Assembly (NCBI RefSeq): GCF_014058705.1
Contig: NZ_CP059692.1
Location: forward strand, 749,001 to 813,000
Length of the DNA stretch: 64,000 nucleotides
DNA from: Aureimonas mangrovi
GTDB taxonomy: Bacteria > Pseudomonadota > Alphaproteobacteria > Rhizobiales > Rhizobiaceae
Direction: 5' to 3'
A model generated the notes under the pieces. It was not told where the DNA came from. It ran no database searches and was given only the letters and a program-made list of their open reading frames with translations. The first letter of the stretch is position 1. Every line of letters starts with the position of its first letter. Below, in pieces: positions 21,851 through 34,353 of this stretch. The translations under genes were made by a program, and so were the position numbers.

Positions 21851-22081
21851 GAAGCGGGCTCGTCGGAGCGATCTGGCGGGGTGGCCCGCCTCCTACCGCG
21901 ACGGTGACCTTCCGCCGCGAGTGCCACTGCGAAGGGTGAGGCGCAAGCGGCGTTGGGCATGATGCGATGCGAAAAAGCTTGGAATGCCCGCCGCGCGGCC
22001 TTGATGAGGGGTGGGCGAAGGATATTTCCTGCGCTGACGAGCATGTGGGCGATTGGAGCGGGGCGTATGCACGCACACGGT

Positions 22082-24877
22082 ATGAGCAAGACGACGGCGG
22101 TCGTCGGGGTGATCTTCGCGATCCTCGGCCTTCTGATCGGTGGCGGCGGCATCTGGCTGACGAGCGTCGGTGGCTCCCCTTACTACATCGTGGCCGGCAT
22201 CGCCTTCATCGGCACGGGCGCGCTGCTCATCCAGCGCCGCCCGGCAGCGCTCGCCCTTTACGCTCTCTTCGTCGTCGGGACGCTCATCTGGGCGCTGTGG
22301 GAAGTGGGCTTCGACTGGTGGCCCCTCGCCGCGCGTGGCGGTCTGATCATCGTTCTCGGCGCGCTTCTGCTTCTGCCATTCATCACCCGCCGGCTCGGCG
22401 TCGCCTCGGTCGCGGATGCGATGGACCATCGCCGCGTCCACCCGACCGCGACGAGCGGGACAGGCCTTGCTCTGACCGTCTCACTGCTTCTGGCCGTAGC
22501 CGTCGCGGCGGTGAGCTGGTTCACCGATCTTCACCGCATCGAGGGCGAGGTGCGTAGCGCCGGCGGCGCCGCGCCGAACGAGCGCGGCGTGCCGGAGGGC
22601 GAGTGGCACGCCTATGGCCGCACCTCGGACGCGCAGCGCTATGCGCCGCTGACGCAGATCACGCCCGACAACGTCTCCGGTCTCGAAGTCGCCTGGGAGT
22701 ACAACACCGGCGACATCTCGCGCCCCGGCGACCCGGAGGAGACGACCTTCCAGGCGACGCCCCTCAAGATCGGCGACCGTCTGTATCTCTGCACGCCGCA
22801 CCAGAGCGTCATCGCGCTCGATGCGGTGAGCGGCAAGGAGATCTGGCGCTATGATCCGCAGATCCGCGGCGAGCTGGCATTGCAGCACCTGACCTGCCGC
22901 GGCCTCTCCTACCAGGCGCCGGGCATCGAGCGCACGACGCAGCCCGTTGCGCTGGCGGATGCTGCGGCCGCCGCCGCCCCGGCTGAGGCTCCGGCCGCGC
23001 CGCCCGCACCGGCTGCCACGCCTGAAGGACAGCCTGCGGCTGCCCCAACTACGCCGGCTCCCGAAGCTGCGCCGGCACCGGCTGCCGAGGCCGAGCCCAC
23101 CACCGTCCAGCCTGCCGGCTCGATGATGACGCAGGGTATGGCGGAAGCGAGCGGTGAGGGAGCCACACCCTCTACCTTCTCGGAGGAAGAGACGGCAGAG
23201 GGGACCCAGCCCCCACAAGAAGGCATCGTGCAGGCCGGCCGTGATCAGAGCGCTTCCTTCACCGCGCTCTCGGCTGCCGATCAGGCCACCGGCACGCCGG
23301 AGCAGCCGGTCGCGAACCTGCCGCAGGCCGCGCAGAGCGCCCAGCGCACGACGCCGAGCTGCACCAACGGCAAGCTCTTCATGCCGACGGCCGACGGCCG
23401 GCTGATCGCGCTCAACCCGGATGACGGTTCGGTCTGCGCCGATTTCGGCGGTGGCGACGGGCAGATCGACCTCTGGGCCAACATGCCCTACGTCAACGTG
23501 GGCTCCTACTACTCGACCTCGCCCGTGGTGGTAACGGCAAATCTCGTGATCGTCGGCGGTACGGTTCTCGACAATGTATCGACGACGGAGCCTTCGGGCG
23601 TTATCCGAGCCTTCGACGTCGACACCGGCGCGCTTGTATGGAACTGGGATTCGGGTAACCCGGACGATACGGCGCCGCTTGCTCCGGGGCAGACCTACAC
23701 GCCGAACTCGCCCAACTCCTGGTCGATCTCTTCCGCGGACGAGGACCTCGGTCTTGTCTATGTGCCTCTCGGCAACCAGCCGCCGGACCAGTGGGGCGGC
23801 AATCGCTCGGAGAATGTGGAGCGTTTCTCCTCTTCGGTCGTGGCTCTGAACCTTGCCGACGGCACGGTCAACTGGAACTTCCAGACCGTTCATCATGACC
23901 TCTGGGACTACGACGTCCCTTCGCAGCCGACGCTGGTGGACCTTACGATTGGGGGCGAAAGTGTTCCAGCGCTGGTCCAGCCGACCAAGCAGGGCGAAAT
24001 CTACGTCCTCGACCGTCGTACCGGGGAGCCGATCCTCCCGGTCACGGAAACACCAGCGCCGCAGGGCGCCGCACGCGGCGACTTTACCGCGCCGACGCAG
24101 CCGGTTTCGGCGCTCTCCTTCGACCCGCCCGCCCTTCGCGAGAAGGACATGTGGGGCGCGACGCTGATCGATCAGCTCGCCTGCCGCATCGCCTTCCATT
24201 CCTACTATTATGAGGGTCGCTTCACGCCGCCTTCCGAGATGGGCTCTCTCATCTATCCGGGCAATTTCGGCGTCTTCAACTGGGGCTCGGTGGCCGTCGA
24301 TCCGGTGCGTCAGATCGCCTTCACGACGCCGGCGTATCTTGCCTTCACGTCGAAGCTCATCCCGCGCGACAACGAGACCGACCTCGTCGTCAACGACCAG
24401 CCGCCGCAGGGCGCGCTGCCGGCCCTGAACGAGAATTTCGGTGCGCCCTACGCTGCGGAGATGGGTCCCTTCACGTCCGTCCTGGGCCTGCCTTGCCAGT
24501 CGCCGCCCTGGGGCTATGTCGCGGCGGCCGACCTGACGACGGGCGAGATCGTGTGGATGCACAAGAACGGCACGGTGCGCGATGCCTCGCCTCTGCCTCT
24601 GCCCTTCCGAATGGGGGTGCCGAGCCTTGGCGGGCCGCTGATGACCGAGAGCGGCGTCGCCTTCCTCTCGGGCACGATCGACTACTACGTGCGCGCCTAC
24701 GACGTGACGACCGGGGAGGAGATCTGGCGCGATCGCCTGCCGGCCGGCGGACAGGCGACGCCAATGAGCTACACCGGTGCTGACGGCCGCCAGTACGTGG
24801 TGGTGGTGGCCGGCGGCCATGGCTCGCTCGGCACCAAGCGTGGCGATTCGGTCATCGCCTACGCCCTGCCACAGTAA
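22082..24877 (+). CDS. gcd: Membrane-bound PQQ-dependent dehydrogenase (glucose/quinate/shikimate family)
   Basis: 931 residues from ATG 22082; in-frame upstream starts reach 21953 but add non-family sequence. About five N-terminal membrane helices (1-150) bind ubiquinone, then a periplasmic propeller begins EWHAYGRTSDAQRYAPLTQITPDNVSGLEVAW and includes TTFQATPLKIGDRLYLCTPH, HHDLWDYDVPSQPTLVDL and a C-terminal MSYTGADGRQYVVVVAGGH. It oxidises a sugar or cyclic polyol in the periplasm with PQQ. Known family members are near 800 residues; the excess here is an Ala/Pro/Glu-rich insertion of about 145 residues (near 281-425) after LTCRGLSY. PQQ synthesis genes are not in the window. Whether glucose or quinate is the substrate is open. 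Confidence 0.92.
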   Translation: MSKTTAVVGVIFAILGLLIGGGGIWLTSVGGSPYYIVAGIAFIGTGALLIQRRPAALALYALFVVGTLIWALWEVGFDWWPLAARGGLIIVLGALLLLPFITRRLGVASVADAMDHRRVHPTATSGTGLALTVSLLLAVAVAAVSWFTDLHRIEGEVRSAGGAAPNERGVPEGEWHAYGRTSDAQRYAPLTQITPDNVSGLEVAWEYNTGDISRPGDPEETTFQATPLKIGDRLYLCTPHQSVIALDAVSGKEIWRYDPQIRGELALQHLTCRGLSYQAPGIERTTQPVALADAAAAAAPAEAPAAPPAPAATPEGQPAAAPTTPAPEAAPAPAAEAEPTTVQPAGSMMTQGMAEASGEGATPSTFSEEETAEGTQPPQEGIVQAGRDQSASFTALSAADQATGTPEQPVANLPQAAQSAQRTTPSCTNGKLFMPTADGRLIALNPDDGSVCADFGGGDGQIDLWANMPYVNVGSYYSTSPVVVTANLVIVGGTVLDNVSTTEPSGVIRAFDVDTGALVWNWDSGNPDDTAPLAPGQTYTPNSPNSWSISSADEDLGLVYVPLGNQPPDQWGGNRSENVERFSSSVVALNLADGTVNWNFQTVHHDLWDYDVPSQPTLVDLTIGGESVPALVQPTKQGEIYVLDRRTGEPILPVTETPAPQGAARGDFTAPTQPVSALSFDPPALREKDMWGATLIDQLACRIAFHSYYYEGRFTPPSEMGSLIYPGNFGVFNWGSVAVDPVRQIAFTTPAYLAFTSKLIPRDNETDLVVNDQPPQGALPALNENFGAPYAAEMGPFTSVLGLPCQSPPWGYVAAADLTTGEIVWMHKNGTVRDASPLPLPFRMGVPSLGGPLMTESGVAFLSGTIDYYVRAYDVTTGEEIWRDRLPAGGQATPMSYTGADGRQYVVVVAGGHGSLGTKRGDSVIAYALPQ

Positions 24878-24955: not shown

Positions 24956-25651
24956 TCAGACCGTCAGGTGCCGACGCACGTCCTCGCGGTCGAGATCCGC
25001 GCCCACGCCCTCGAAGACGATACGCCCACGGTCCATCACATAGACCCGGTCCGCGAGCTCGCGGCAGAAGTCGAGATACTGCTCGACAAGGAGGATCGCG
25101 AGCCCGGCCTCGTCTCGAAGATAGCGTATGGCGCGGCCGATATCCTTGATGATCGAGGGCTGGATGCCCTCGGTCGGCTCGTCGAGGACGAGGAGTTGCG
25201 GGCGCGTGACGAGGGCGCGGCCGATGGCGAGCTGCTGCTGCTGGCCACCGGACAGATCGCCGCCACGCCGCCCGAGCATGGTCTTGAGCACCGGGAACAG
25301 CTCGAAGACATGGTCCGGCACGGTGCGTTCCGCGCGGCGTACGGGCGCGAACCCCGTCTGCAGGTTTTCCTTCACAGTCAGGAGCGGGAAGATTTCGCGG
25401 CCCTGCGGCACGAAACCGATGCCGGCGCGCGCGCGCCGGTAGGGCGCGGCGCCCTTGAGGTCGACGCCGTCTAGACTGATGGTGCCGCCGCGCACCGCCT
25501 GTTGTCCGACGATGGCGCGCATCAGCGAGGTCTTGCCGACGCCGTTGCGACCGAGGACACAGGTTATCTCCCCTTTCGCCGCGCCGATGGAGATGCCGCG
25601 CAGGGCCTGCGCGGCGCCGTAATAGAGATCGACGTCCTTGACGGTCAGCAT
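24956..25651 (-). CDS. urtE: Urea ABC transporter ATP-binding protein UrtE
   Basis: 231 residues. Walker A GRNGVGKTS, FVPQGREIFPLLTVKENL, signature LSGGQQQQLAIGRAL, Walker B LLVLDEPTEGIQPSII and H-loop LVEQYLDF define a LivF-like ATPase, and GVGKTS with TEGIQPSIIKDI is typical of UrtE. It is the last gene of urtABCDE and starts 3 bp after urtD. With UrtD it powers high-affinity urea import. No urease genes are in the window. Confidence 0.96.
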   Translation of the reverse strand: MLTVKDVDLYYGAAQALRGISIGAAKGEITCVLGRNGVGKTSLMRAIVGQQAVRGGTISLDGVDLKGAAPYRRARAGIGFVPQGREIFPLLTVKENLQTGFAPVRRAERTVPDHVFELFPVLKTMLGRRGGDLSGGQQQQLAIGRALVTRPQLLVLDEPTEGIQPSIIKDIGRAIRYLRDEAGLAILLVEQYLDFCRELADRVYVMDRGRIVFEGVGADLDREDVRRHLTV

Positions 25652-25654
25652 GGT

Positions 25655-26497
25655 TCAGCGTCCCAGATAGACTTCGATGACGCGCGGGTTCGCGGAGACC
25701 TGATCGAGCGGGCCCTCGGCGAGGACATGGCCCTCGTGCAGGCACGTGACCTTCACGCCCAGTTCGCGCACGAAGTGCATATCGTGCTCGACGACGATGA
25801 CCGAATGGTCGCGCGCGATGTCCTTCAGGAGCCGCGCTGTTTCCTCCGTCTCGGCGTCCGTCATACCCGCCACCGGCTCGTCCACGAGCAGGAGTTCGGG
25901 GTCCTGTGCCAGCAGCATGCCGATCTCCAGCCACTGCTTCTGGCCGTGCGAGAGCCCGGCGGCCGGCGCGTCGCGGCGATCGGCAAGGCGGGTCAGTTCG
26001 AGAATGTCGCCGATGCGGGCGCGTTCTTCGGCACGTCCCTTGTGGAAGAGCGCCGGGAAAACGCCGCGCGATCCGGCGAGCGCGAGCTTCAGATTGTCGC
26101 GCACGGTGTGGTTCTCGAAGACGGTCGGCTTCTGGAACTTGCGACCGATGCCCATCGTGGCGATCTCGGCCTCGTCGTGGCGCGTCAGGTCGATGTCTCC
26201 CCGGAAGAACACCTCGCCCGCGTCGGGCCGAGTCTTGCCGGTGACAATGTCCATCATCGTTGTCTTGCCGGCGCCGTTCGGGCCGATGATCGCGCGCATC
26301 TCACCCCTGGCGACGACGAGCGATAGATCGTTGATCGCCTTGAAACCGTCGAAGGCCTTCGAGACGCCGTTCAGATAGAGCAGCGTATCGCCGCGCCGGC
26401 CGCTGCTGCCGGCGGAGACTTCGCTCTCGCGCTTCTGCGCCATCTGCGCGGCGTAGGGGGCAGGCGAGACGGGCGGTTCGGTGCTGGTGGTATCCAT
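25655..26497 (-). CDS. urtD: Urea ABC transporter ATP-binding protein UrtD
   Basis: 280 residues from ATG 26497; an upstream GTG at 26506 overlaps the urtC stop as GTGA and would add three residues, so either may be used. LivG-like features: GPNGAGKTTMMDIVTGKTRPD, RKFQKPTVFENHTVRDNLKLAL, signature LSHGQKQWLEIGMLL (SHGQ variant normal for UrtD), Walker B LLLVDEPVAGMTD and VVEHDMHFVREL. An N-terminal extension of about 35 polar residues is poorly conserved. Confidence 0.96.
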   Translation of the reverse strand: MDTTSTEPPVSPAPYAAQMAQKRESEVSAGSSGRRGDTLLYLNGVSKAFDGFKAINDLSLVVARGEMRAIIGPNGAGKTTMMDIVTGKTRPDAGEVFFRGDIDLTRHDEAEIATMGIGRKFQKPTVFENHTVRDNLKLALAGSRGVFPALFHKGRAEERARIGDILELTRLADRRDAPAAGLSHGQKQWLEIGMLLAQDPELLLVDEPVAGMTDAETEETARLLKDIARDHSVIVVEHDMHFVRELGVKVTCLHEGHVLAEGPLDQVSANPRVIEVYLGR

Positions 26498-26502
26498 GAT
26501 GC

Positions 26503-27657
26503 TCACTCCGCCGGCTTCGATGCGAGGTCTTCGCCCGCACCCTTCTCGTCCCGCGCGGTCCTGCGCCGTTCGGTGAGGGCCGACCAGCCATGCTCGACGG
26601 TGCCGACGAGGCCGCGCGGCAGGAACAGCGTGACGGCGACGAAGAGGCCGCCGAGCGCGAAGAGCCAGAGGCCGGGCGCAAAGCCGGTGAGCCAGGATTT
26701 CGCGGCGTTGACGAGGACGGCGCCGACGGCCGCACCCCAGAGCGTGCCGCGCCCCCCAACGGCGACCCAGATCACCGCCTCGATGGAATTGGCGGGGGCG
26801 AACTCGCCGGGGTTGATGATACCGGTCTGCGGCACGTAGAGCGCGCCCGCGACCCCCGCCATCATGGCCGACAGCGTGAAGACGAAGAGCTTGAAGCGCT
26901 CGACCCTGTAGCCGAGGAAGCGTGCGCGGCTCTCGGCGTCTCGGATCGCGACGAGGACGAGGCCGAGCTTGGACGTGACGACCGCGCGGGCGACGAGATA
27001 GCCGGTCGCCAGCGCCAGCGCGGTGATCGAGAAGAGCGCGACGCGCGTCTCGCGGGCCCTGAGGTCGAAGCCGAGGACATCGCGGAAGTCGGTCAGGCCG
27101 TTGTTGCCGCCGAAGCCCATCTCGTTGCGGAAGAAGGCGAGCATCAGCGCGAAGGTCATCGCCTGCGTGATGATCGACAGGTACACGCCGGTCACGCGCG
27201 AGCGGAACGCGAACCAGCCGAAGACGAAGGCGAGCGCGCCGGGCACCAGCATGGTCATCAGCGCGGCGAACCAAAAGTTCCCGAAGCCCCACCAGTACCA
27301 GGGCAGTTCCGACCAGTTCAGGAAGACCATGAAGTCCGGCAGGTTCGGATTGCCGTAGACGCCGCGCGGCCCGATCTCGCGCATCATGTGCATGCCGATG
27401 GCGTAGCCGCCGAGCGCGAAGAACGCCCCGTGGCCGAGCGAGAGGATGCCGCAATATCCCCAGACGAGATCGAGCGCGAGCGCCAGCAGCGCGAAGGCGA
27501 GCCACCGGCCTAGAAGCACGACCCAGGTCGTGGGCACGTAGAGGGCGTCGCCGGGCGAGAGGAATGCGTTCGACAGCGGCATGAAGATCGCTGCCAGAAC
27601 CAGGATCGCGACGAAGGCGCGGCCGCCCCAGTTGCCGAGAAGACGGGTCGTGATCAT
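26503..27657 (-). CDS. urtC: Urea ABC transporter permease UrtC
   Basis: 384 residues, LivM-like permease with about ten membrane segments. Family blocks: LDLVWGYCGILSLGHGAFFALGGYAIGMHMMREIG, SRVTGVYLSIITQAMTFALMLAFFRNEMGFGGNNGLTDF, and the cytoplasmic loop AIRDAESRARFLGYRVERFKLFVF. GGNNGLTDF is typical of the urea rather than branched-chain amino-acid subfamily. It overlaps urtB by 4 bp. Confidence 0.96.
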   Translation of the reverse strand: MITTRLLGNWGGRAFVAILVLAAIFMPLSNAFLSPGDALYVPTTWVVLLGRWLAFALLALALDLVWGYCGILSLGHGAFFALGGYAIGMHMMREIGPRGVYGNPNLPDFMVFLNWSELPWYWWGFGNFWFAALMTMLVPGALAFVFGWFAFRSRVTGVYLSIITQAMTFALMLAFFRNEMGFGGNNGLTDFRDVLGFDLRARETRVALFSITALALATGYLVARAVVTSKLGLVLVAIRDAESRARFLGYRVERFKLFVFTLSAMMAGVAGALYVPQTGIINPGEFAPANSIEAVIWVAVGGRGTLWGAAVGAVLVNAAKSWLTGFAPGLWLFALGGLFVAVTLFLPRGLVGTVEHGWSALTERRRTARDEKGAGEDLASKPAE

Positions 27658-29255
27658 GCCTCCACCGCGCGTCCCTTCTGCGCGAACAGGCCGCGTGGCC
27701 GCTTCTGGATGAACAGGATAACAAGGACGAGGACGAGGATCTTCGCCAGCACCGCACCCGCATAGGGCTCGAGGAACTTGTTGACGACGCCAAGGCTCAT
27801 CGCGGCCGTCAGCGTGCCCCAGAGCGAGCCGACGCCGCCGAAGACGACCACGAGGAAACTGTCGATGATGTAGCTCTGGCCGAGATTGGGCGAGACGTTG
27901 TCGATCTGTGAGAGCGCGACGCCGGCAAGGCCCGCGATGCCCGAACCGAGGCCGAAGGTCATGGCGTCCACCCACGGTGTGCGGATGCCCATCGCCGCGG
28001 CCATTCGGCGGTTCTGCGTCGCAGCGCGCATCTGCAGCCCGAAGGACGTCCAGCGCATCACGGCCATCAGGCCGAGGAGGACGGCGAGCGAGAAGAAGAT
28101 GATGACGAGGCGGTTGAGCGTGAGTTGCGCGCCGAGGACGTCGATCGTGCCGGACATCCAGGACGGCGAGGAAACCTCGCGGTTGGAGGCGCCGAACCAG
28201 GAGCGCGTCGCCTGCTGCAGGATCAGCGAGACGCCCCAGGTGGCGAGCAGCGTCTCCAACGGGCGGCCGTAGAGCCAGCGGATGATGCCGCGCTCGATGG
28301 CGACGCCGATGGCGCCGGCGACGAGGAAGGCGGCGGGCAGGGCGAAGAGCAGCGAGTAGTCGAAGAGACCGGGGGCGTGGGCGCGCATGAGCCCCTGCAC
28401 GACGAAGGTCGTGTAGGCGCCGATCATCACCATCTCGCCATGCGCCATGTTGATGACGCCCATGACGCCGAAGGTCACGGCGAGGCCGATGGCAGCCAGA
28501 AGCAACACCGAGCCGAGCGACAGGCCGTAGAAGACGTTCTGCGCCCAGTCGATCAGGGTGAGGCGGCTCTGGATGGCGCTGACGCCGGCGCTCGCCGCCT
28601 CGGCGAGTTCGCCTTCGCCCTCGGCATAGGGGGCGAGCAGGACCAGCGCATCGCGGTCGCCGCGCGCGGCCACGATCCGTGCCGCTTCGACCTTTTCCGC
28701 CTCTGGACGGTCGGAGTTCAGTACAGCGGCGGCTCGGGCCTGCCGCATCAGATTGGCCACGGAGAGCACGGTCTCGGCTTCGATCGCGGCGTCCAGCGCC
28801 TCGATGGCCTCGGCATCACGGGCCGAGAAGATGGCCTGTGCCGCGTTCATGCGCTGGCGGATGCTCGGGCTCTGGAGGGTGAGCGAGCCCATCGCGGCGG
28901 TGACGGCGCGGCGCAGGCGGTTGTTGACGCGGATGGCGTCGACGTCGCCGCGCGCAGCTTCGCCCGCGTCCTCGCCGGTGAGGGCGTCGGTCAGCGCGTA
29001 GGTCCGCCCGTCGCGTTCGCCGACGAAGACGCGGCCGTCGGATGTGCGCGTGACGAGATCGCCGTCGGCAAGCGCGCGCAGGACGGGCGCGGCGGCCGGG
29101 TCGCCCGTCGCCGCGAGTGCCTGCACGGCGCGCTCCGTCGCGTCGAAGCCGCTGCCCGCGCCGAGCGCGTCGATGAGCGGGCGCAGGTCGCTCTGCGCGG
29201 CGGCAGGCCCGGCCAGCATCAGGAGGAGGACCATGCCTCTAAGGAAAGCGATCAT
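27654..29255 (-). CDS. urtB: Urea ABC transporter permease UrtB with N-terminal periplasmic domain
   Basis: 533 residues from the ATG at 29255; the frame continues upstream but without family sequence. A signal peptide (to AAAQ, residue 21) leads an N-terminal domain of about 210 residues with SPSIRQRMNAAQAIFSARD, normal for UrtB. The LivH-like permease follows: NVFYGLSLGSVLLLAAIGLAVTFGVMGVINMAHGEMVMIGAYTTF and QATRSWFGASNREVSSPSWM. It forms the channel with UrtC. It is separated from urtA by 196 bp holding a strong palindrome. Confidence 0.96.
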   Translation of the reverse strand: MIAFLRGMVLLLMLAGPAAAQSDLRPLIDALGAGSGFDATERAVQALAATGDPAAAPVLRALADGDLVTRTSDGRVFVGERDGRTYALTDALTGEDAGEAARGDVDAIRVNNRLRRAVTAAMGSLTLQSPSIRQRMNAAQAIFSARDAEAIEALDAAIEAETVLSVANLMRQARAAAVLNSDRPEAEKVEAARIVAARGDRDALVLLAPYAEGEGELAEAASAGVSAIQSRLTLIDWAQNVFYGLSLGSVLLLAAIGLAVTFGVMGVINMAHGEMVMIGAYTTFVVQGLMRAHAPGLFDYSLLFALPAAFLVAGAIGVAIERGIIRWLYGRPLETLLATWGVSLILQQATRSWFGASNREVSSPSWMSGTIDVLGAQLTLNRLVIIFFSLAVLLGLMAVMRWTSFGLQMRAATQNRRMAAAMGIRTPWVDAMTFGLGSGIAGLAGVALSQIDNVSPNLGQSYIIDSFLVVVFGGVGSLWGTLTAAMSLGVVNKFLEPYAGAVLAKILVLVLVILFIQKRPRGLFAQKGRAVEA

Positions 29256-29451: not shown

Positions 29452-30795
29452 TCAGTTGGCGGCTTCCTCGGCAGGAGCCTCTTCGGCCGCCTCGGCGCCC
29501 TGGCCGCCGCATTGGCCGGTGACGACGTTGAAGTTGCCGCAGGAGAGAGGTGCGCGCCAATCCGCGATCAGGTCACGCGAGCCTTCGAGGTAGGGCGACC
29601 ACTCCTGAGCGACGACCGTGCCGGGCGTCTCCCAGACCGTCTCGAACTGGCCGTCGTCCTGGATCTCGCCGATCAGCACGGGCTTGGTGATGTGGTGGTT
29701 CGGCATCATCGCCGAGAAGCCACCGGTCAGGTTCGGCACGGAGACGCCGATCATCGCGTCGATCACCGCATCGGTGTCGGTGGTGCCGGCCTTCTCGACT
29801 GCCTTAACCCACATGTTGAAGCCGATGTAGTGGGCCTCCATCGGGTCGTTGGTCACGCGATCCTCGTCACCGATGAAGGCATGCCACTTGTCGATGAAGT
29901 CGAGGTTCTCGTCGGTGTCGACGCTCATGAAGTAGTTCCAGGCGGCGAGGTGCCCGACCAGAGGGCCCGTGTCGATGCCGGCCAGTTCCTCCTCGCCGAC
30001 CGAGAAGGCGATGACCGGGATGTCCTCGGCGGAGACCCCCTGGTTGGCGAGTTCGCGGTAGAAGGGCACGTTGGCGTCGCCGTTGATCGTGGAGACCACG
30101 GCCGTGCGCTTGCCGGACGAGCCGAAGGTCTGGATCTCAGAGACGATCGACTGCCAGTCGGAATGGCCGAACGGCGTGTAGTTGATGAGGATGTCCTCTT
30201 CCGCGACGCCGAGCTCTTCCTTGAGGTAGGTCTCGAGGATGCGGTTGGTGGTGCGCGGGTAGACGTAGTCGGTGCCGGCCAGAACCCAGCGCTCGACGCC
30301 TTCTTCCTCGGCGAGATAGTCCACCGCCGGGATCGCCTGCTGGTTGGGAGCGGCGCCGGTGTAGAAGATGTTGCGCGAGGATTCCTCGCCCTCGTACTGC
30401 ACGGGGTAGAAGAGGATGCCGTTCAGCTCCTCGAAGACCGGCAGAACGGACTTGCGCGACACGCTCGTCCAGGCGCCGAAGACGGCGTCCACCTGATCCT
30501 CGGCCAGAAGCTGGCGCGCCTGCTCGGCAAAGCGCGGCCAGTCGGAAGCCGGATCGACGACGACGGCCTCGAGAGGCCGGCCGAGGAGGCCGCCCTTCTC
30601 GTTCTGGTCGGCGATGAGCATCTCCATGACGTCCTTCAGCGTCGTCTCGGAGATCGCCATCGTGCCCGAGAGCGAATGGAGGATGCCGACCTTGATCGGC
30701 TCGCCGGAGGGCGCGTCCTGCGCGAGCGCCGCGCCCGACAGCATCGTGGCGGCGAAGAGCCCGCCGACGAGGCCCGCTGTGGTGAAGAGTTTCAT
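29452..30795 (-). CDS. urtA: Urea ABC transporter substrate-binding protein UrtA
   Basis: 447 residues. Signal peptide MKLFTTAGLVGGLFAATM, then LSGAALA, is followed by IKVGILHSLSGTMAISETTLKDVMEMLIADQN, FGAWTSVSRKSVLPVFEELNGILFYPVQYEGEESS and YVYPRTTNRILETYLKEELG, all diagnostic of UrtA/FmdD proteins. A C-terminal tail EAAEEAPAEEAAN is acidic and probably disordered. The open frame extends far upstream, but that part overlaps the divergent kinase gene and is not coding. First gene of urtABCDE. Confidence 0.97.
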   Translation of the reverse strand: MKLFTTAGLVGGLFAATMLSGAALAQDAPSGEPIKVGILHSLSGTMAISETTLKDVMEMLIADQNEKGGLLGRPLEAVVVDPASDWPRFAEQARQLLAEDQVDAVFGAWTSVSRKSVLPVFEELNGILFYPVQYEGEESSRNIFYTGAAPNQQAIPAVDYLAEEEGVERWVLAGTDYVYPRTTNRILETYLKEELGVAEEDILINYTPFGHSDWQSIVSEIQTFGSSGKRTAVVSTINGDANVPFYRELANQGVSAEDIPVIAFSVGEEELAGIDTGPLVGHLAAWNYFMSVDTDENLDFIDKWHAFIGDEDRVTNDPMEAHYIGFNMWVKAVEKAGTTDTDAVIDAMIGVSVPNLTGGFSAMMPNHHITKPVLIGEIQDDGQFETVWETPGTVVAQEWSPYLEGSRDLIADWRAPLSCGNFNVVTGQCGGQGAEAAEEAPAEEAAN

Positions 30796-30869: not shown

Positions 30870-30899
30870 GGTGCGTAATGCACATACGTCGAATGACGT
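30870..30899. promoter_or_regulatory. Two inverted repeats between urtA and the NCS1-kinase gene
   Basis: GTGC-GTAAT-GCAC (30870-30882) and TACGTC-GAAT-GACGTA (30884-30899) lie side by side in the 177-bp divergent region. They are candidate binding sites for the LuxR-type regulator encoded behind the kinase, or for another regulator of the urt operon. The remaining parts of this region (30796-30869, 30900-30960) show no further clear motif; AAGGGAGA precedes the kinase start. Confidence 0.45.
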
Positions 30900-30972
30900 A
30901 GGCGAGGGTCCTTGCCCGCCGTCGCGCAACGCGCTGCAATCGCGGGACGACCATCGAAAGCCAAGGGAGACC

Positions 30973-33900
30973 ATGTCCGGACGCCAGCGCATCCTGCCCG
31001 TGCGGCGCGACTACAACCGCTGGGTCGCCAACGAGACGCTGGAGGACTACGCACTGCGCTTCACCGCGCGGCGCGCCCGGCGCTGGTCTGCGCAATGGGT
31101 CTCGCAGACAGCGATCGGGGCGATCTCGTTCCTGGCGCTGGAGGCGGTGGGCGGCGCGATCACGCTGATGTTCGGCTTCACCAACGCGGTGGCGGCGATC
31201 CTCGTCGTTTCGGTGGTGCTCTTCCTCACCGGCCTGCCGATCAGCCGCTACGCCGCGCGTTACGGCGTCGACATCGACCTTCTGACGCGCGGCGCAAGCT
31301 TCGGCTATATCGGCTCGACGATCACCTCGCTGATTTATGCGAGCTTCACCTTCATCCTCTTCGCCATCGAGGCGGCGATCATGACGGCCGCGCTGAACCT
31401 TGCCTTCTCGGTGCCGCTCTGGCTCGGCTACGTGATCTCGGCCTTCGCCATCATCCCGCTTGTCACGCACGGGGTAACCTGGATCTCGCGGTTCCAGCTC
31501 GCCACGCAGCCGCTCTGGATCGGGCTCAACGTCCTGCCGCTCGGCTTCATCCTCTGGCACGACCCCGGCTCGGTCGCAGAGTGGACGAGCTTCGCGGGGC
31601 TGGAGAACCCGCAGGCGGCGGGCTTCGACCTCCTGAAGTTCGGCGCCGCCGCCTCCGTCATCCTCGCTTTGATGCCGCAGATCGGCGAGCAGGTGGACAT
31701 CCTGCGCTTCCTGCCGGCGCAGGAGGGCAAGCCGAGCCGCAACTGGCGCCTCGCCATGCTCGCGGCCGGTCCCGGCTGGATCGTTCTCGGCGCGCCGAAG
31801 ATCCTGCTCGGCTCGTTCCTCGCGGTGCTGGCGCTGCGGCACGGCGTGCCGGTGGAAAGCGCGGCGGACCCGGCGCATATGTACGACCTTGCCTTCGGCT
31901 TCGTCTTCTCCTCGCCCGCCGTCGCGACCTATCTGATGGCGCTGTTCGTCGTCGTCAGCCAGCTCAAGATCAACGTGATGAACGCCTATGCGGGGTCGCT
32001 CGCCTGGTCGAACTTCTTCTCGCGGCTGACGCACTCGCATCCCGGCCGCGTCGTCTGGCTGATCTTCAACGTGGCGATCGCGCTTCTCTTGATGGAGCTT
32101 GGCATCTACGGCGCGCTGGAGGCGACCTTCGGCCTCTTCGCCAATTTCGCGGTGGCGTGGCTCGGGGCCATCGTCGCCGATCTCGTCATCAACAAGCGGC
32201 TCGGCCTCTCGCCGCCCGGCATCGAGTTCAAGCGCGCCCATCTCTACGACGTGAACCCGGTCGGCGTCGGCGCGATGGGGCTCGCCAGCCTCCTGTCGCT
32301 GACCGCCTTCGCCGGCGCCTTCGGCCCGGTCGCGCAGGCGCTTTCGCCCTTCGTCGCGCTCGGCACGGCGCTTGTCGTCTCGCCGCTGATCGCCTGGAGA
32401 ACGGGCGGGCGCTACTACCTCGCGCGCAAGCCCCGCGCGCACTGGCACAAGCTCGCCGAAATACGCTGCATCATCTGCGAACTGCCCTTCGAGCCGGAGG
32501 ACATGGCGCACTGCCCGGCCTATTCGGGGCCGATCTGTTCGCTCTGCTGCTCTCTCGACGCGCGCTGCCACGATCTTTGCAAGCCGCATGCGCGATTTTC
32601 CGCGCAGGCAGCGGATGCGATGGAGGCTGTGCTGCCGGCGCGCGTCGCCCGTCACGCCCGCTCGGGCGTCGGCGCCTTTCTCGGCGTCTTCGCGTTGCTG
32701 ACGGGCGTCGTCGCGCTGGTTCTCTCGCTGATCTACTACCGCACGGTGATCGTGAACCCGGAGGCGACGGGGACGGTCGCGACGGCGCTCTGGGCGGCGT
32801 TCTTCATCCTCGTGATCGTCACGGGCATCGCCTCCTGGTTCTTCATCCTCGCTCAGCAGAGCCGGCGCGTCGCGCAGGAGGAGACGCAGCGCCAGACGAC
32901 GATGCTGTTGCGTGAGATCGCCTCGCATCGGCGCACCGACGCCGCGCTCCAGAAGGCCAAGGAGGCCGCGGAAGCCGCGAGCAACGCCAAGAGCCGTTAT
33001 GTCGTCGGCATGAGCCACGAACTTCGCACGCCGCTGAACACCGTGCTCGGCTATGCGCAGCTTCTGGAGCGCGACGAGAGCGTGCCAGCCAACCGGCGCG
33101 GCGGGCTGAAAGTCATCCGCTCCTCCGCCGAACATCTCTCGGGTCTCATCGACGGGCTCCTCGACATCTCCAAGATCGAGACCGGCCGCCTGCAACTCCG
33201 CCGCGCGGTCCTTTCGCTGCCGGACTTCCTCGACAGCCTCGAAGCCATGTTCGCGGTGCAGGCGAGCGCCAAGGGGCTCGAGTTCATCGTCGCGCGCTCG
33301 CCGGCGCTGCCGGCGCTGGTGCGCACCGACGAGAACCGGCTGCGGCAGATCCTCATCAACATCCTGTCGAACGCCATCAAATATACCGAAGCCGGCTCGG
33401 TGCGGCTCGACATCGCCTATCGCAACCAGGTCGCGACCTTCACCGTGACGGACACCGGGCCAGGCATCGCGGAGGGCGAACTCGCGCGCATCTTCGATCC
33501 GTTCGAGCGCGGATCGGCCGCGCTCGGCAAGACGCCGGGGCTCGGCCTCGGCCTGACGATCACGCGGCTTCTGGCCAACCTGATGGGCGGCGATGTGCAC
33601 GCGTCCTCCACGGCGGGCGAGGGATCACGGTTCGACGTGCGGCTGATGCTCTCGAGCGTTTCCCGGCATGAGGCGGCGAAGGAGACTGTGAAACCGGAAG
33701 CGCCGGTATCCGCTCCGAAGGGCTATCACGGGCCGCGCCGCACCGTCCTCATCGTCGACGACGAGGAGGCGCACCGCGACCTGATGCAGGAAATCCTGCG
33801 CCCTCTCGGCTTCATCGTCCTTACCGCGCCGGACGGGGCGACGGCGCTGGAGGTCGTCAGCGAGGTGCGCCCGGACCTCTTCCTCCTCGACGTGCAGATG

Positions 33901-34353
33901 CCGGGCATGGACGGCTGGTCGCTGGCAGCACGCCTGCGCGAACGCGGCCACGCCGGCGCGATTCTCATGCTTTCGGCGACGGTTGCCGAGACGGGCGGCG
34001 CAACCGGCGAGAATGGCGAAGAGATGGTGCAGGGGTCGATCGCCAAGCCCATCCAGATCGCCCAGCTCCTGTCGCGGATCGCGGACCATCTCGGCCTCGA
34101 ATGGACCGAGGAGGCAGAGGCTCCGGTCGAGCCACAGGTGTCGAACGGCCCCATCCTGCCGCCGTCTCCCGGTCACGTCGCCGAGCTTCTGCAATTTGCG
34201 CGGATCGGCTATAGGAAGGGGATCGAGCGCAAGCTCGCCGAACTCGATGCGGAACCCGGCCTTTCGCCCTTCGTGGCGCGGGCGCGCGCCCTTGCCGAAC
34301 GCTTCGACATGCAGGCCTTGAGCGAACTCCTGGAGGCGACCCGACTTGAATGA
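30973..34353 (+). CDS. NCS1-type transporter / histidine kinase / receiver fusion protein
   Basis: 1126 residues from ATG 30973 (AAGGGAGA upstream). Residues about 1-475 match nucleobase:cation symporter-1 proteins, with about 12 helices and SAQWVSQTAIGAISFLALEA and DIDLLTRGASFGYIGSTI. A linker at 497-540 has eight Cys (499, 502, 514, 522, 525, 526, 532, 536). Two more helices follow (about 556-624), then a coiled stretch, HisKA (GMSHELRTPLN, His682), HATPase (ILSNAIKYTE; DTGPGIAEG; GLGLGLTI), and a receiver with Asp973 (LLDVQMPGMDG). The transporter part likely senses, or couples uptake to, a nitrogen compound; divergent urt genes suggest urea or an allantoin/purine relative. Its output probably passes to the downstream LuxR regulator. 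The signal is inferred. Confidence 0.93.
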   Translation: MSGRQRILPVRRDYNRWVANETLEDYALRFTARRARRWSAQWVSQTAIGAISFLALEAVGGAITLMFGFTNAVAAILVVSVVLFLTGLPISRYAARYGVDIDLLTRGASFGYIGSTITSLIYASFTFILFAIEAAIMTAALNLAFSVPLWLGYVISAFAIIPLVTHGVTWISRFQLATQPLWIGLNVLPLGFILWHDPGSVAEWTSFAGLENPQAAGFDLLKFGAAASVILALMPQIGEQVDILRFLPAQEGKPSRNWRLAMLAAGPGWIVLGAPKILLGSFLAVLALRHGVPVESAADPAHMYDLAFGFVFSSPAVATYLMALFVVVSQLKINVMNAYAGSLAWSNFFSRLTHSHPGRVVWLIFNVAIALLLMELGIYGALEATFGLFANFAVAWLGAIVADLVINKRLGLSPPGIEFKRAHLYDVNPVGVGAMGLASLLSLTAFAGAFGPVAQALSPFVALGTALVVSPLIAWRTGGRYYLARKPRAHWHKLAEIRCIICELPFEPEDMAHCPAYSGPICSLCCSLDARCHDLCKPHARFSAQAADAMEAVLPARVARHARSGVGAFLGVFALLTGVVALVLSLIYYRTVIVNPEATGTVATALWAAFFILVIVTGIASWFFILAQQSRRVAQEETQRQTTMLLREIASHRRTDAALQKAKEAAEAASNAKSRYVVGMSHELRTPLNTVLGYAQLLERDESVPANRRGGLKVIRSSAEHLSGLIDGLLDISKIETGRLQLRRAVLSLPDFLDSLEAMFAVQASAKGLEFIVARSPALPALVRTDENRLRQILINILSNAIKYTEAGSVRLDIAYRNQVATFTVTDTGPGIAEGELARIFDPFERGSAALGKTPGLGLGLTITRLLANLMGGDVHASSTAGEGSRFDVRLMLSSVSRHEAAKETVKPEAPVSAPKGYHGPRRTVLIVDDEEAHRDLMQEILRPLGFIVLTAPDGATALEVVSEVRPDLFLLDVQMPGMDGWSLAARLRERGHAGAILMLSATVAETGGATGENGEEMVQGSIAKPIQIAQLLSRIADHLGLEWTEEAEAPVEPQVSNGPILPPSPGHVAELLQFARIGYRKGIERKLAELDAEPGLSPFVARARALAERFDMQALSELLEATRLE

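Follow-up and report, generated by a model that had tools for sequence, protein, structure and literature searches.

An NCS1-like permease head on a histidine kinase beside urea and amide uptake genes: a putative urea-sensing two-component system in Aureimonas mangrovi

In the SLC5/STAC kinases CbrA, CrbS and RpuS, which act with LuxR- or NtrC-type regulators, a transporter head is joined to HisKA and HATPase domains, and CrbS also carries a receiver (passages of PMC13022988, PMC9100948 and PMC5715377). Ks-Amt5, an ammonium transporter-histidine kinase, is likewise a nutrient permease turned sensor of a nitrogen compound (PMC5764959, in the part cited). Here we describe a hybrid sensor kinase from Aureimonas mangrovi, encoded in a stretch of 64,000 nucleotides (positions 749,001 to 813,000 of contig NZ_CP059692.1, hereafter the window), in which the head resembles the NCS1 permeases and the gene stands beside urtABCDE, the operon of a urea importer. 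We propose, with a probability of about three in four, that the kinase and the regulator encoded next to it form a dedicated urea-sensing two-component system controlling this one operon, within a family of sensors for urea or short amides.

The kinase differs from the SLC5/STAC kinases in its NCS1-like head and in what follows it: Pfam finds neither a STAC nor a PAS domain (nor an SLC5 head) in the protein, which has instead a module of eight cysteines and a helix hairpin. The partners of the SLC5/STAC kinases are histidine, acetate or pyruvate, whereas those of the present family are urea or amide genes. Ks-Amt5 differs in having the Amt fold, a single kinase and no internal receiver, and the cited part of the source knows no response regulator for it (PMC5764959). 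The best structural matches of the head are Mhp1 and CodB, with which it shares an Asn of transmembrane helix (TM) 8; these proteins have no kinase, and the heads have lost the TM3 Trp, carry Glu for a Gln and escape PF02133. On the regulator side, CrbR is likewise a LuxR-type protein with an inverted-repeat operator (PMC5715377, in part).

Among known operons, the amide-type urt/FmdDEF-like cluster of Bradyrhizobium (blr0968-0973), with importer, formamidase and amidase, is of the kind that partners the amide-type kinases described below. Its importer was suspected in 2010, by SIMBAL, of moving amides and not urea (PMC3098086), a suspicion raised again for a Pseudomonas cluster (PMC13209695); the cited passages mention no divergent kinase or regulator in the first case and no kinase in the second. 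The AmiC/AmiR system likewise controls an amidase in response to amides, and a distant free-standing permease of our survey lies in such an operon, but it works by antitermination through a binding protein, with no membrane kinase. A search of the open-access literature in PMC found no description of this kinase.

The kinase and its gene partners

The preliminary description had proposed that one protein divergent from urtABCDE joins a permease head, a Cys-rich linker, two extra helices, HisKA/HATPase and a receiver. Pfam, the invariant cysteines and structural models bear this out for the single 1126-residue protein, which starts with ATG, and the products of the divergent operon, 177 bp away, each exceed their NCBIfam cut-offs (Table 1). 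In Pfam, the expected HisKA and Response_reg domains were found, as was HATPase_c, making the protein a hybrid HisKA kinase; the expected Transp_cyt_pur match in the head was not. The regulator gene adjoins the kinase gene, as in a two-component operon, and lies downstream of it in all 80 named loci as well. Kinase length is 1100-1159 residues in 104 of 106 rows, the remaining two being a 1059-residue protein and a protein cut by a contig end. This constancy demonstrates that the architecture is not a chance product.

To define the gene partners, a row was called urea-type when true urt and/or urease genes lay nearby, and amide-type when an amide-type urt operon and/or formamidase did, always in the stretch read (L and G numbers are our handles for loci and genomes). 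Four sets gave 170 loci; exclusion of L050, L183 and L369-L372 and addition of the window yielded a head set of 165 rows. Three contigs were entered twice in the row set (L034/L051, L043/L067 and L045/L104). The 165 kinases comprise 101 urea-type, 56 amide-type and 8 rows of neither kind, so that 157 have urea or amide genes. Among relatives, urt genes are divergent from the kinase in 23 of 25 loci, the exceptions being L045 and the contig end L050. A scan of named genomes confirmed at least 581 relatives, and among the best 80 of these, which were kept, a UrtA-type gene is divergent in 78. The same holds for a draw across the class, whose loci were not chosen by likeness to the window: an urt-type ABC operon lies beside the kinase in 20 of 25 loci (7 urea-type, 13 amide-type and 5 neither, one of these a broken copy). 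In a draw across the phylum the kinase head occurs in 36 of 40 stretches, 13 of them urea-type, 22 amide-type and 1 on a 4.8-kb contig. The survey is thus the opposite of a missing association with urt or other nitrogen-uptake genes.

The UrtA proteins of the named loci fall into two kinds, about 70-79% versus 37-39% identical to that of the window. Behind the second kind stands a formamidase (NF045496, 727-763 bits versus 500 in the three tested), often with an aliphatic amidase. Urease alpha was found in 19 of the 80 named loci, all with the 70-79% kind. Over the whole set, and within the tblastn limits used, formamidase occurs in 53 of 56 amide-type rows and urease alpha in 31 of 101 urea-type rows, and the two never occur together in one stretch. 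Layouts vary while the linkage is kept: the genes can be divergent, lie up to 4.8 kb apart, or have urt downstream on the same strand (L167, L168, L179 and L352). Outside the class, L350, L362 and L375 have urease divergent from the kinase and no urt in the stretch; the stretch of L359 has the start of a UrtA-like gene at its far edge. Because the partners are an amide-type operon with formamidase, or urease with or without urt, urea or short amides are more likely ligands than allantoin or cytosine. The view of the kinase as a transceptor monitoring a nitrogen compound, put forward in the preliminary description, is therefore supported by the survey, with the ligand refined.

Some loci depart from these designs or add to them. 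A third design of the family (L373:7999-10656 and L374:8163-10847) lacks the internal receiver; a receiver-kinase gene and formamidase follow, and an OmpR-type regulator gene is divergent. On a Klebsiella oxytoca plasmid (L390, CP026716.1 143496-153851), an amide-type amiF-urtEDCBA operon, its UrtA 82% identical to the amide type, stands divergent from the kinase and regulator genes, and the palindrome is present. The head matches 342 Klebsiella plasmid records, and two papers, in the passages cited, interpreted a plasmid set homologous to L390 as urea uptake. A urea-type set is carried on pSymB of Sinorhizobium meliloti strain B401. The urea-type UrtB of the window has an N-terminal extension of about 250 residues before the permease domain, which the amide-type UrtB of L046 (308 residues) does not have. 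An Ldh_2 gene after the regulator was rejected as a part of the system, since none of the 80 named loci has a match to it near the kinase. Beyond urtE, a PQQ-dependent dehydrogenase-like open reading frame (ORF; window 21953-24877, identified by eye) bears an Ala/Pro-rich insert of about 100 residues.

Table 1. Features of the kinase locus, in window coordinates
Feature	Position	Strand	Basis
Hybrid sensor kinase with permease-like head, 1126 residues	30973..34353	+	ORF and Pfam
NCS1-like head, residues 1-486	30973..32430	+	Fold, profile match, free-standing relatives
Eight-Cys module, residues 499-536 (C499, C502, C514, C522, C525, C526, C532, C536)	32467..32580	+	Invariance in relatives
Extra helix hairpin, approximately residues 565-625, second helix extending towards HisKA	32665..32847	+	Model, predicted template modelling score (pTM) 0.36
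HisKA, residues 673-738	32989..33186	+	Pfam
HATPase_c, residues 785-893	33325..33651	+	Pfam
Receiver domain (Response_reg), residues 925-1036	33745..34080	+	Pfam
Response regulator, receiver and GerE (LuxR-type) helix-turn-helix, 311 residues	34346..35281	+	Pfam; 8 bp overlap with kinase end
Palindrome TACGTCGAATGACGTA, putative response-regulator site of urtA promoter	30885..30900	.	89 bp from urtA start
urtA, urea ABC transporter binding protein	29452..30795	-	TIGR03407, 557 bits (cut-off 492.75)
urtB (start by eye)	27654..29255	-	TIGR03409, 426 bits (cut-off 250.3)
urtC (start by eye)	26503..27657	-	TIGR03408, 426.5 bits (cut-off 296.2)
urtD (start by eye)	25655..26443	-	TIGR03411, 379 bits (cut-off 304.1)
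urtE	24956..25651	-	TIGR03410, 343 bits (cut-off 285.8)

A palindrome that accompanies the kinase

The palindrome before urtA, first spotted by eye, is common to 14 intergenic regions of the genus. In all 81 urea-type divergent intergenic regions, the best match to TACGTCAAATGACGTA has 0, 1, 2 or 3 mismatches (13, 24, 40 and 4 regions, respectively); the consensus was derived from genus rows, so that 14 of the 81 regions are not independent and the other 67 mostly are. In a control in which the first 260 nt of each region were shuffled 20 times, 2 of 1620 sequences reached 3 mismatches. The 16-bp palindrome keeps a distance of 76-121 bp to urtA in these loci, its distance to the kinase ranging from 59 to 4777 bp.

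Comparison of 21 genomes of the genus links the site to the kinase. Exact TACGTYRAAYGACGTA occurs once in each of the 14 genomes with a urea-type kinase and in none of the other 7. UrtA exceeds the cut-off in 20 of the 21 genomes, and at the six urtA genes of genomes without the kinase the best match in the 500 nt upstream has 4-7 mismatches. The exact site being confined to kinase genomes and absent before the six kinase-less urtA genes, regulator, kinase and operator come and go together. Within the genus the putative operator looks like a single-target site, and its linkage to urtA fits a kinase that sets urea uptake.

Related sites recur elsewhere in the family, with exact TACG-N8-CGTA ends in 17 of 21 amide-type regions and, within 700 bp of the kinase, in 30 of 60 further loci that reach beyond the class. 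Three further one-mismatch sites in the own genome were rejected as targets, since they are not conserved in the genus and could not be confidently tied to promoters. At G000:C1:3115667-3115682 (L189), a second palindrome, TACGTCATCTGACGTA, lies about 100 bp before the possible start of an acetyltransferase-like ORF; it was not seen in congeners at one mismatch.

The head and its linker

The head (residues 1-486) is not recognised by current models. Pfam gave nothing for it even at E≤10, the PF02133 cut-off not being reached, and neither NCBIfam (for NCS1) nor a sequence search of the PDB gave a match. PF02133 has zero matches in the own genome and matches in only 3 of 41 relatives, at loci other than the head, many congeners with the head being among the 41. 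Structure gives a positive answer. An AlphaFold2 model (559 residues, from 15 rows; predicted local distance difference test (pLDDT) 78.6, pTM 0.81) was compared with the PDB by Foldseek, and the top five matches were three Mhp1 entries and two CodB chains (E 5.8e-10 to 1.8e-7, template modelling score on target 0.68-0.74); a sialic acid symporter came next (E 2.6e-6), and structures of the SSS family rank below NCS1. Profile-profile comparison with four NCS1 proteins of the genus gave a probability of 86.8 (E 4.2e-6). Two free-standing permeases bridge the gap to PF02133 (cut-off 23.5): one from a Klebsiella pneumoniae urease operon, 41% identical to the head and scoring 37.7 bits, and one from genome G612 (L369), 25% identical and scoring 36.4 bits. 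Three further free-standing members of the clade and an Arthrobacter permease are still missed. The model supports an NCS1 variant of the LeuT fold for the head and, together with the profile match and the two bridging permeases, places it in a separate NCS1-fold clade mostly missed by current models. The purine/cytosine-type head of the preliminary description thus stands as an NCS1 assignment and falls as an ordinary member of that family. Matches to a profile of the head were either very strong or absent in the class draw, where 26 of 385 genomes matched, the own genome among them; in the phylum draw 56 of 398 genomes matched, some outside the class, with a few weak matches to free-standing proteins.

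In Mhp1, Trp117 stacks on the hydantoin ring, Trp220 closes on it and Asn318 holds the N/O edge, assisted by Gln121 and Gly219 (PMC4195764, in the part cited). Aligned to Mhp1, at under 20% identity to canonical NCS1 proteins, the head keeps the TM8 Asn (N334), replaces the Gln by Glu (E133) and has Leu or Phe (position 129) for the stacking Trp of TM3. Both N334 and E133 are invariant in the 157 labelled rows. The stacking Trp is present in 20 of 20 canonical rows, and position 129 is Leu or Phe in all 157. Judged by this alignment, the pocket retains the Asn that reads amides and lacks the Trp that stacks rings, as would suit a small ligand, urea for example. Position 129 is also the most discriminating column of the head (urea-type, 90 Leu and 11 Phe; amide-type, Phe in 56 of 56). 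It was rejected as a specificity switch and kept only as a lead, because the 11 exceptions include urease-linked lineages; it is confounded by descent.

The eight cysteines of the linker are invariant in three alignments of 13, 15 and 13 rows. In a second model (pLDDT 75.6) the module forms a small beta/helix fold, the two extra helices are present, and the second helix of the hairpin runs without a break into the one that leads to HisKA; as pTM is only 0.36, this continuity is weak evidence. A profile of the module found 25 of 385 class-draw genomes, namely those with the head minus a truncated copy in G386. The idea that such a module is common to other transporter-headed kinases was rejected, since in 61 relatives and the class draw the profile finds this kinase family only, bar weak matches. 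One of these (L269, G006:C24:222195-222327) is a frameshifted kinase remnant with a similar Cys module, adjoining a dihydroxyacetone-kinase-like gene.

Free-standing permeases of the clade were read in seven loci of a plasmid collection and in L369. Urease, formamidase or amidase genes lie beside the permease in 5 of the 7, where the linked permeases are 40-42% identical to the head and no kinase is present; the Streptomyces locus and a second Arthrobacter locus, the other 2 of the 7 read, have no urease/amidase link. An Arthrobacter permease (40% over 539 residues) adjoins an aliphatic amidase and acetate-CoA ligase (acs), and one from Tsukamurella lies near fmdA. The more distant L369 permease stands with CN_hydrolase, AmiC-like and AmiR-like genes. 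Inside urease operons of K. pneumoniae and two Acinetobacter (L396:6971-8578, L393:6980-8587 and L398:6980-8587) we observed members annotated as cytosine or allantoin permease, or as hypothetical, which on gene context may be urea permeases. The permeases of urease operons end in a CxxC...CSLC tail that is part of the Cys module; the module therefore predates the kinase or is independent of it.

The linkage to urea or amide genes has switched several times on the head tree. With rows thinned to 73 at 85% identity, the urea label changes 8 times, at least 5 of these changes being forced by well-supported branches; shuffled labels gave 24.7 changes on average, and none of 500 shuffles was as low as 8. 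Amide-linked rows adjoin nearly every urea-linked clade. The deep backbone of the tree is weak, so the direction of the switches is uncertain.

A proposed sensor for urea and short amides

The observed architecture, fold and gene linkage, together with a conserved operator that co-occurs with the kinase, allow a proposal for ligand, phosphotransfer route and direction of activation. Urea (formamide or acetamide in relatives) would bind the NCS1-like head, and the resulting movement would be transmitted by way of the Cys module and then the hairpin, in which the second helix may continue into the dimerisation helix of the kinase, thereby setting kinase activity. Phosphate would then travel by way of the internal receiver to the LuxR-type regulator encoded next door, which would bind the palindrome 89 bp before urtA and turn on urtABCDE. 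Both the CrbR precedent (PMC5715377, in the part cited) and the location of the site lead us to infer an activating sign. Elsewhere in the family, the equivalent system would govern an amide importer with formamidase, or urease.

Several observations weigh against this proposal. Neither kind of gene lies near the kinase in L045/L104 (one contig entered twice), L084, L172-L175 and L388 (the 4.8-kb contig), L084 having an aliphatic amidase divergent from the kinase, and in Rhizobiaceae urtA can sit several kilobases away. The palindrome is absent from amide-type loci L046 and L049, no clear palindrome precedes the kinase in the urease-linked loci L350, L359, L362 and L375, and half of the 60 further loci lack the exact ends within 700 bp. 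The passages cited from work on CbrA also argue that the signal sensed by a kinase with a transporter head may be an intracellular one (PMC7918813).

The likeliest of the alternatives, although we consider it improbable, is that the head is a membrane anchor or a vestigial permease; the true signal would then be cytoplasmic, for example nitrogen status, or a metal or the redox state sensed by the Cys module, and the linkage to urea and amide genes would only mirror the target genes. Urease requires nickel, and eight invariant cysteines in a small beta/helix fold could bind a metal; moreover, a CbrA variant without its transporter part could still signal (PMC7918813, in part). Yet no other part of the sensor is as constrained as the head, in which N334 and E133 never vary among the labelled rows. 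Free-standing permeases of the same clade accompany urease and amidases where the kinase is absent, and end in a tail that corresponds to part of the Cys module, and the linkage to formamidase is at odds with a nickel signal. A head that recognises one of the classical NCS1 ligands (allantoin, uracil, cytosine or hydantoin) as an upstream source of urea, so that the system anticipates urea, is more doubtful still: the NCS1 fold, the suggestion in the preliminary description and the annotation of some free-standing relatives as allantoin or cytosine permeases speak for it, but the hydantoin-stacking Trp of the canonical proteins is Leu or Phe in the heads, and no purine route explains formamide and acetamide genes as the other partner. 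Least likely of all is a real system that represses, or has a target other than urtA, with the palindrome belonging to another regulator, for although that putative site was found by eye and has three one-mismatch companions in the own genome, it tracks the kinase among congeners and is missing at urtA promoters without it, recurs in amide-type loci and beyond the class, and resembles the CrbR inverted repeat, which immediately precedes the -35 region and is required for activation (PMC5715377, in the cited part).

A wider version of our proposal is more tentative, and we would put it at somewhat short of an even chance. The head would represent an unrecognised clade of urea/short-amide permeases within the NCS1 fold, free-standing in urease and amidase operons and, once fused to the kinase, yielding true transceptors that still move their ligand. 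Each of the repeated switches between amide and urea would have been carried by importer or hydrolase genes suited to the new ligand, and the pocket would have changed convergently at its Trp-equivalent position.

The family also offers a sequence-based guide to annotation. TIGR03407 still names amide-type operons urea transporters, the Klebsiella plasmid set included, and the proteins of urease operons that carry the name of a cytosine or allantoin permease may instead be permeases for urea. With urea- and amide-linked heads naturally paired on a common scaffold, ligand specificity and signal transmission can be tested by exchanging heads in laboratory strains. If the proposal is true, the kinase would detect urea itself at the membrane and exemplify the conversion of a transporter to a receptor outside the SLC5 and Amt families.

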